From Chthoniobacterales bacterium (GTDB taxonomy: Bacteria > Verrucomicrobiota > Verrucomicrobiia > Chthoniobacterales > Terrimicrobiaceae): DNA of 55,243 nucleotides. The notes below the pieces were generated by a model that ran no database searches, was not told where the DNA came from, and saw nothing but the letters and a program-made list of their open reading frames with translations. A program made the translations under genes and the position numbers. Shown piece after piece: positions 54,959 through 55,243 of the stretch (its first letter is position 1; each line of letters opens with the position of its first letter). The stretch covers positions 1 through 55,243 of the forward strand of contig JACSRU010000117.1 of assembly GCA_014879575.1 (NCBI GenBank), in the 5' to 3' direction.

Positions 54959-55025
54959 GGACCAGACGGAGCTGGTCCCTCCAGGGCAAAGCACCTCTTC
55001 TGGTGGGATGACCTCCGTGTCGTCC
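54959..55025. repeat. Palindromic tandem repeat, unit 1
   Basis: This 67-base unit has three parts. Hairpin A is GGACCAG, loop ACGGAG, CTGGTCC. A middle segment begins CTCCA and ends TGGTG. Hairpin B is GGATGAC, loop CTCCGT, GTCGTCC (one G-T pair). The loops of A and B are exact reverse complements. Unit 2 starts 101 bases later. Confidence 0.85.
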
Positions 55026-55059
55026 GCCTCGGGCCGCGCCTGCCTCACCAACCGCCAAC

Positions 55060-55127
55060 GGACCAGACGGAGCTGGTCCCTCCAAGGGCGAAGCCCCACT
55101 TCTGGAGGGATGACCTCCGTGTCGTCC
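55060..55127. repeat. Palindromic tandem repeat, unit 2
   Basis: This 68-base unit repeats unit 1 almost base for base in both hairpins. The middle is better formed: CTCCA and TGGAG pair around GGGC-GAA-GCCC, giving a three-stem element. A third copy begins at 55153 but loses similarity after GGACCAGACC. The spacers between copies are also related (both end in CAACCGCCA). Confidence 0.85.
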
Positions 55128-55243
55128 GCCTCGGTTTGCGACCAACCGCCACGGACCAGACCTGCCCCCAGGATACGCAGGGCCAATTCTGAGAACCAAC
55201 CATCCATCTGAATGACAGAGAATTAGGGCAACGAGCTGGACAA

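Follow-up and report, generated by a model that had tools for sequence, protein, structure and literature searches.

What are the tandem palindromes at the right-hand end of a 55,243-nt stretch of Chthoniobacterales DNA (the window), and does selection keep the loops of their hairpins complementary? The original prediction, made from the letters alone, described tandem palindromes with complementary hairpin loops. The window, which is contig C112 in a genome (G000) of 3.6 Mb and 178 contigs, does contain them as described: the array at 54959-55161 comprises two full units and a remnant, a unit being two 20-nt palindromes with a short spacer between them. It is intergenic and begins 43 bp after the stop codon of the neighbouring gene, while on its other side the contig ends 78 bases past position 55165, and the right flank of the array therefore cannot be judged. 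The palindrome pattern had 4 matches in the window versus 0.66 expected by chance, and 4 were reached in no shuffle. The parts of the array are:

54959..54982, minus strand: REP type 1 copy 1, GGAG-GGACCAG-CTCCGT-CTGGTCC, tag at 54979-54982
54983..55001, no strand: inner spacer of unit 1, between both tags
55002..55025, plus strand: REP type 2 copy 1, GGTG-GGATGAC-CTCCGT-GTCGTCC, mutated tag GGTG at 55002-55005
55026..55059, no strand: spacer between units 1 and 2, 34 bp
55060..55083, minus strand: REP type 1 copy 2, GGAG-GGACCAG-CTCCGT-CTGGTCC, tag at 55080-55083
55084..55103, no strand: inner spacer of unit 2, holding the GGGC-GAA-GCCC mini-stem
55104..55127, plus strand: REP type 2 copy 2, GGAG-GGATGAC-CTCCGT-GTCGTCC
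55128..55152, no strand: spacer before the truncated third unit
55153..55161, minus strand: third REP type 1, a remnant reading GGACCAGAC on the plus strand

On its own strand, each REP consists of the tag GGAG and a 20-nt palindrome with a 7-bp stem, the 6-nt loop CTCCGT, and the other side of the 7-bp stem, the consensus being GGACCAG-CTCCGT-CTGGTCC for type 1 and GGAYGAC-CTCCGT-GTCGTCC for type 2; tag and loop are common to both types. Hairpin A (54959-54978 and 55060-55079) is type 1 on the minus strand, and hairpin B (55006-55025 and 55108-55127), whose stem contains a T-G wobble, is type 2 on the plus strand. The GGAG tags of paired REPs face each other, and the pairs repeat head-to-tail every ~101 bp; the 101-base spacing first reported holds for hairpin A, but that of hairpin B is 102. 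The flanks first described as pairing are, as CTCC/GGAG, the tag at the foot of each hairpin, except that the B tag of unit 1 is GGTG. The mini-stem is real in unit 2 but only there, and the best stem over 21 units varies from 2 to 6 bp; the decayed third copy is a truncated hairpin A. The feature is a BIME, i.e., inverted REP pairs in tandem, and is ordinary in kind.

That the element is amplified and REP-like was borne out by the rest of the genome, in which a pattern for both types (≤3 mismatches) found 159 REP sites against 0 for the reversed control, a palindrome within the 20-50 nt of REPs and dispersed in high copy number. There were 86 matches to the unit, many of them at contig ends. 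Among 128 candidates from fetched stretches of the genome, GGAG was present in 116, at the tag position expected of REPs, and the loop CTCCGT in 113, with the stems GGACCAG/CTGGTCC in 56 and GGAYGAC/GTCGTCC in 54. Strand alternated in 68 of 74 neighbouring REP pairs, with gaps mostly of 43-45 and 57-59 bp, the inverted and often tandem pairing typical of BIMEs. In the listed REP-bearing contigs, at least 34 ends have a REP no more than 350 bp away, so the arrays are probably collapsed in the assembly and the true number of REPs is probably higher; the arrays account for breaks in the genome assembly at these repeats.

A RAYT transposase, sought as the partner of such repeats, is encoded on contig C72 (C72:4205-4696, 164 residues, HUH motif DHIH), with five REPs of the array's family upstream and one intact and one disrupted REP downstream. 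The product scored 87.6 bits against NCBIfam NF047646 (REP-associated tyrosine transposase; cut-off 80), and PDB 4er8, the E. coli TnpAREP, ranked first both by sequence and by predicted fold (pLDDT 88.6, TM 0.65), while Pfam Y1_Tnp had no match to it at E 0.01. The gene thus specifies an HUH-Y1 protein that passes the RAYT model and has cognate REPs on both sides. The flanking by the array's own repeats, the score above the cut-off and the fold nearest 4ER8 support the REP/RAYT assignment, and this RAYT is probably the spreader of the window's REP family. A second RAYT of this kind occurs at C40:9870-10310 (L191; 49% identity), with no GGAG REPs found flanking it. On contig C154 (16160-25855, L035) there is also a GTAG-tagged palindrome set, GTAG-RACGAAC-TTCCAA-GTTCGTY, with nine matches, all on that contig, surrounding a different and more distant Y1 gene that reads WQHDNWNRIIR.

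We consider it very likely that the array is a BIME of one REP family mobilised by the genome's RAYT, and we infer the cutting, the mobilisation and any effect on neighbouring genes from what is observed, namely copy number, alternation, tags, RAYT identity, RAYT-flanking REPs and a like architecture among relatives. The C72 RAYT, as an IS200/IS605-like HUH-Y1 single-strand nuclease, would recognise the folded REP hairpin and GGAG on single-stranded DNA and cut near the hairpin, probably at CT dinucleotides that the tag selects; REP pairs would in this way be mobilised and amplified, moving to new sites that are mainly intergenic. Tandem units could also be gained by recombination or slippage, with no part played by the RAYT. 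Counted against this explanation are the tag, GGAG rather than the canonical GT[AG]G, and the C40 RAYT without flanking REPs. It is highly improbable that the units are a passive satellite that grew through slippage or unequal recombination and was scattered by ordinary rearrangement, no enzyme being involved: the head-to-tail arrays, the partial terminal units and the lack of target-site evidence in three same-genus genomes compared would suit such an origin, but the units are spread over dozens of contigs with tag, loop and strand alternation conserved, and a RAYT is physically associated with REPs in this genome and in relatives. Gene order around one mid-contig array is not conserved in those three genomes, which therefore offer no empty site for comparison, and no insertion event was observed, a further point against mobilisation by the RAYT.

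The complementarity of the loops is a by-product of the inverted orientation, and on this point the original prediction, which proposed that both alternative folds, one long stem and two kissing hairpins, are conserved, was not supported. To the stronger reading, a bistable RNA or DNA switch whose two folds are both kept by selection, we give next to no credence. Either fold can be drawn, the long stem comes out as the minimum-energy structure (-38.4 versus -30.8 kcal/mol, unit 2 as RNA), and most pairs have complementary loops (0.938). However, across 92 distinct inverted pairs, pairing was 0.977 within hairpins, a figure that is partly by construction since the REP search demanded at least 6 of 7 pairs there, versus 0.648 between the long-stem arms, and for the 71 heterodimers the values were 0.978 and 0.573. 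In most pairs the two partners have unlike arms, and the long stem is thus not maintained; between type 1 and type 2, paired changes at stem positions 5 and 7 keep the hairpins and break the long stem. The high loop complementarity arises because the loop is common to both REPs, and two same-loop REPs in opposite orientation must have complementary loops; selection for kissing loops was not supported. In some relatives the partner loops are unlike, as at L086, where CGCTGT is paired with CTCCGT, and a long-loop variant of type 2 has lost the loop. Further evidence against a switch came from the unconserved mini-stem, the many unrelated places at which units are found, and Rfam, whose covariance models had no match to the array at E up to 1; that search likewise turned up no described structured RNA. 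Pairing of the CTCC of the loop with the GGAG tag was considered and rejected, as TCC in 55 of 90 loops (26 in within-loop shuffles) is, among related REPs, a sign of a conserved loop only.

Compatible with a RAYT-mobilised BIME, but in our view unlikely, is an additional role for this array as a co-opted transcription terminator or mRNA-stabilising hairpin array 3' of the upstream gene. Its closeness to the stop codon, its stable folding and the known influence of REPs on mRNA stability and termination (PMC6006769) all fit such a role, but the hairpins are without a T-run after them and copies occur in many contexts.

The long-loop form of type 2 carries a ~62-bp insert (TTGCTGGCCTRCGGCCACCC...CTCGCTTCGCTCGG) at a single point of the loop, CT^CYGT, between T2 and C3. 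There were 22 matches to the insert, among them C72:4763-4826 (L211), C12:32980-33041 and C51:52818-52879, and most of the 22 are at contig ends; in the 15 copies inspected the visible flank was always a recognisable type-2 half, imperfect in two. Other genomes of the order also hold pieces of the insert, there lacking REP arms. It could be a second small element targeting REP loops, or the variant could be a long-loop REP type.

The nearest named relatives of the C72 RAYT are from Verrucomicrobiota; more come from Kiritimatiellota, Lentisphaerota, Planctomycetota and a few further phyla, and as almost all are from metagenome bins, binning errors may lie behind some of the placements. Many of these RAYTs are flanked on either side by GGAG-tagged 20-nt palindromes that share the 7+6+7 layout. 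The type-2 REP (≤1 mismatch) was present in 45 of 210 genomes of the order and 14 of 45 genera (controls, 0), this genome being the richest in copies, and type 1 was found in this genome only among the loci examined. The 24-nt type-2 REP is nearly unchanged across the 14 genera, though REPs are usually described as species-specific. At L121, L127, L133, L134 and L147, REP pairs lie within the RAYT coding region with the frame apparently unbroken. Two loci, L136 and L151, from an Armatimonadetes bin and a Fuerstiella bin, have common GGAG-GGCGAGG-CTCCCG-CC... repeats, whose stem may contain two mismatches, reminiscent of the E. coli bulge.

The E. coli BIME-2 and its TnpAREP (4ER8) resemble this system in their tandem inverted REP pairs, 5' tetranucleotide tag, REP-flanked RAYT and HUH-Y1 fold. 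They differ in tag (GTAG versus GGAG), in having long bulged stems rather than short 7-bp stems and a conserved 6-nt loop, and at residues 99-101, which are W-E-H in E. coli TnpAREP and W-D-T (its residues 116-118) in the C72 RAYT. GGAG may have been mentioned in earlier REP literature, and we do not claim priority for the tag. Within the same phylum, the Opitutus terrae GTAG-17, -19 and -20 families are likewise tagged palindromes with dimers and high copy number, but with tags GTAG or GTGG, a distinction drawn from their published description (PMC3733652). TnpAREP subclass 2.4/RAYT group 4 also has REPs inside the RAYT frame, as in the GGAG-type L121, L133 and L147, but its described tags are GT[AG]G (PMC6006769). 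REP/BIME architecture, RAYT association and the abundance in Opitutus terrae were already known (PMC2817692, PMC3733652, PMC6006769, PMC8266576). The tag named in the literature is most often GTAG, alongside GT[AG]G and certain degenerate variants, and 'GGAG' is absent from the body text of the REP papers compared, PMC3733652 among them. Possibly new is the association of GGAG-tagged REPs with a clade of RAYTs reading W-D-[T/R].

This pairing of tag and enzyme emerged from loci fetched by RAYT similarity with a tagged palindrome no more than 330 bp away. RAYTs reading W-D-[T/R/other] had GGAG at 39 loci and GTAG at 2, whereas those reading F-D-H had GGAG at 1 and GTAG at 14, a contrast close to a single evolutionary one on the tree, so that its Fisher value is not independent evidence. 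The tree sets the W-D-[T/R] RAYTs (e.g., L081, L091, L117 and L124, with GGAG) apart from a sister clade of F-D-H RAYTs (L156, L159, L165, L170, L174, L176 and others, with GTAG). These positions align with residues 99-101 of E. coli TnpAREP, in which W94, Q95, E100, H101 and R104 have been discussed as tag-reading residues (PMC6006769). A simple code is weakened by the E. coli enzyme, with W at 99 yet a GTAG tag, and by the distant Y1 gene of this genome, which reads W-N-R beside GTAG-tagged palindromes; therefore, the tag is not decided by any one residue. The TnpAREP of Marinomonas has its cut site set by the tag, via A3-G4 (CT) or T2-G4 (CA) (PMC8266576), a rule that predicts that GGAG would keep CT cutting, with CC in place of CA should positions 2 and 4 be the ones used.

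As the contrast is close to one event on the tree, we put forward a switch of specificity only as a hypothesis, tentatively and as somewhat doubtful: Verrucomicrobiota and neighbouring phyla may have a GGAG class of REPs in which, with the change of the RAYT from F-D-H to W-D-[T/R], tag and enzyme switched specificity together. If so, the tag change would retain CT cutting and alter the alternative cut sites. GGAG versus GTAG is a natural contrast between two RAYT clades set apart by a few residues close to the known tag-binding site, and should those residues be causal, tag reading and cut-site choice by RAYTs would become testable by residue swaps in vitro.
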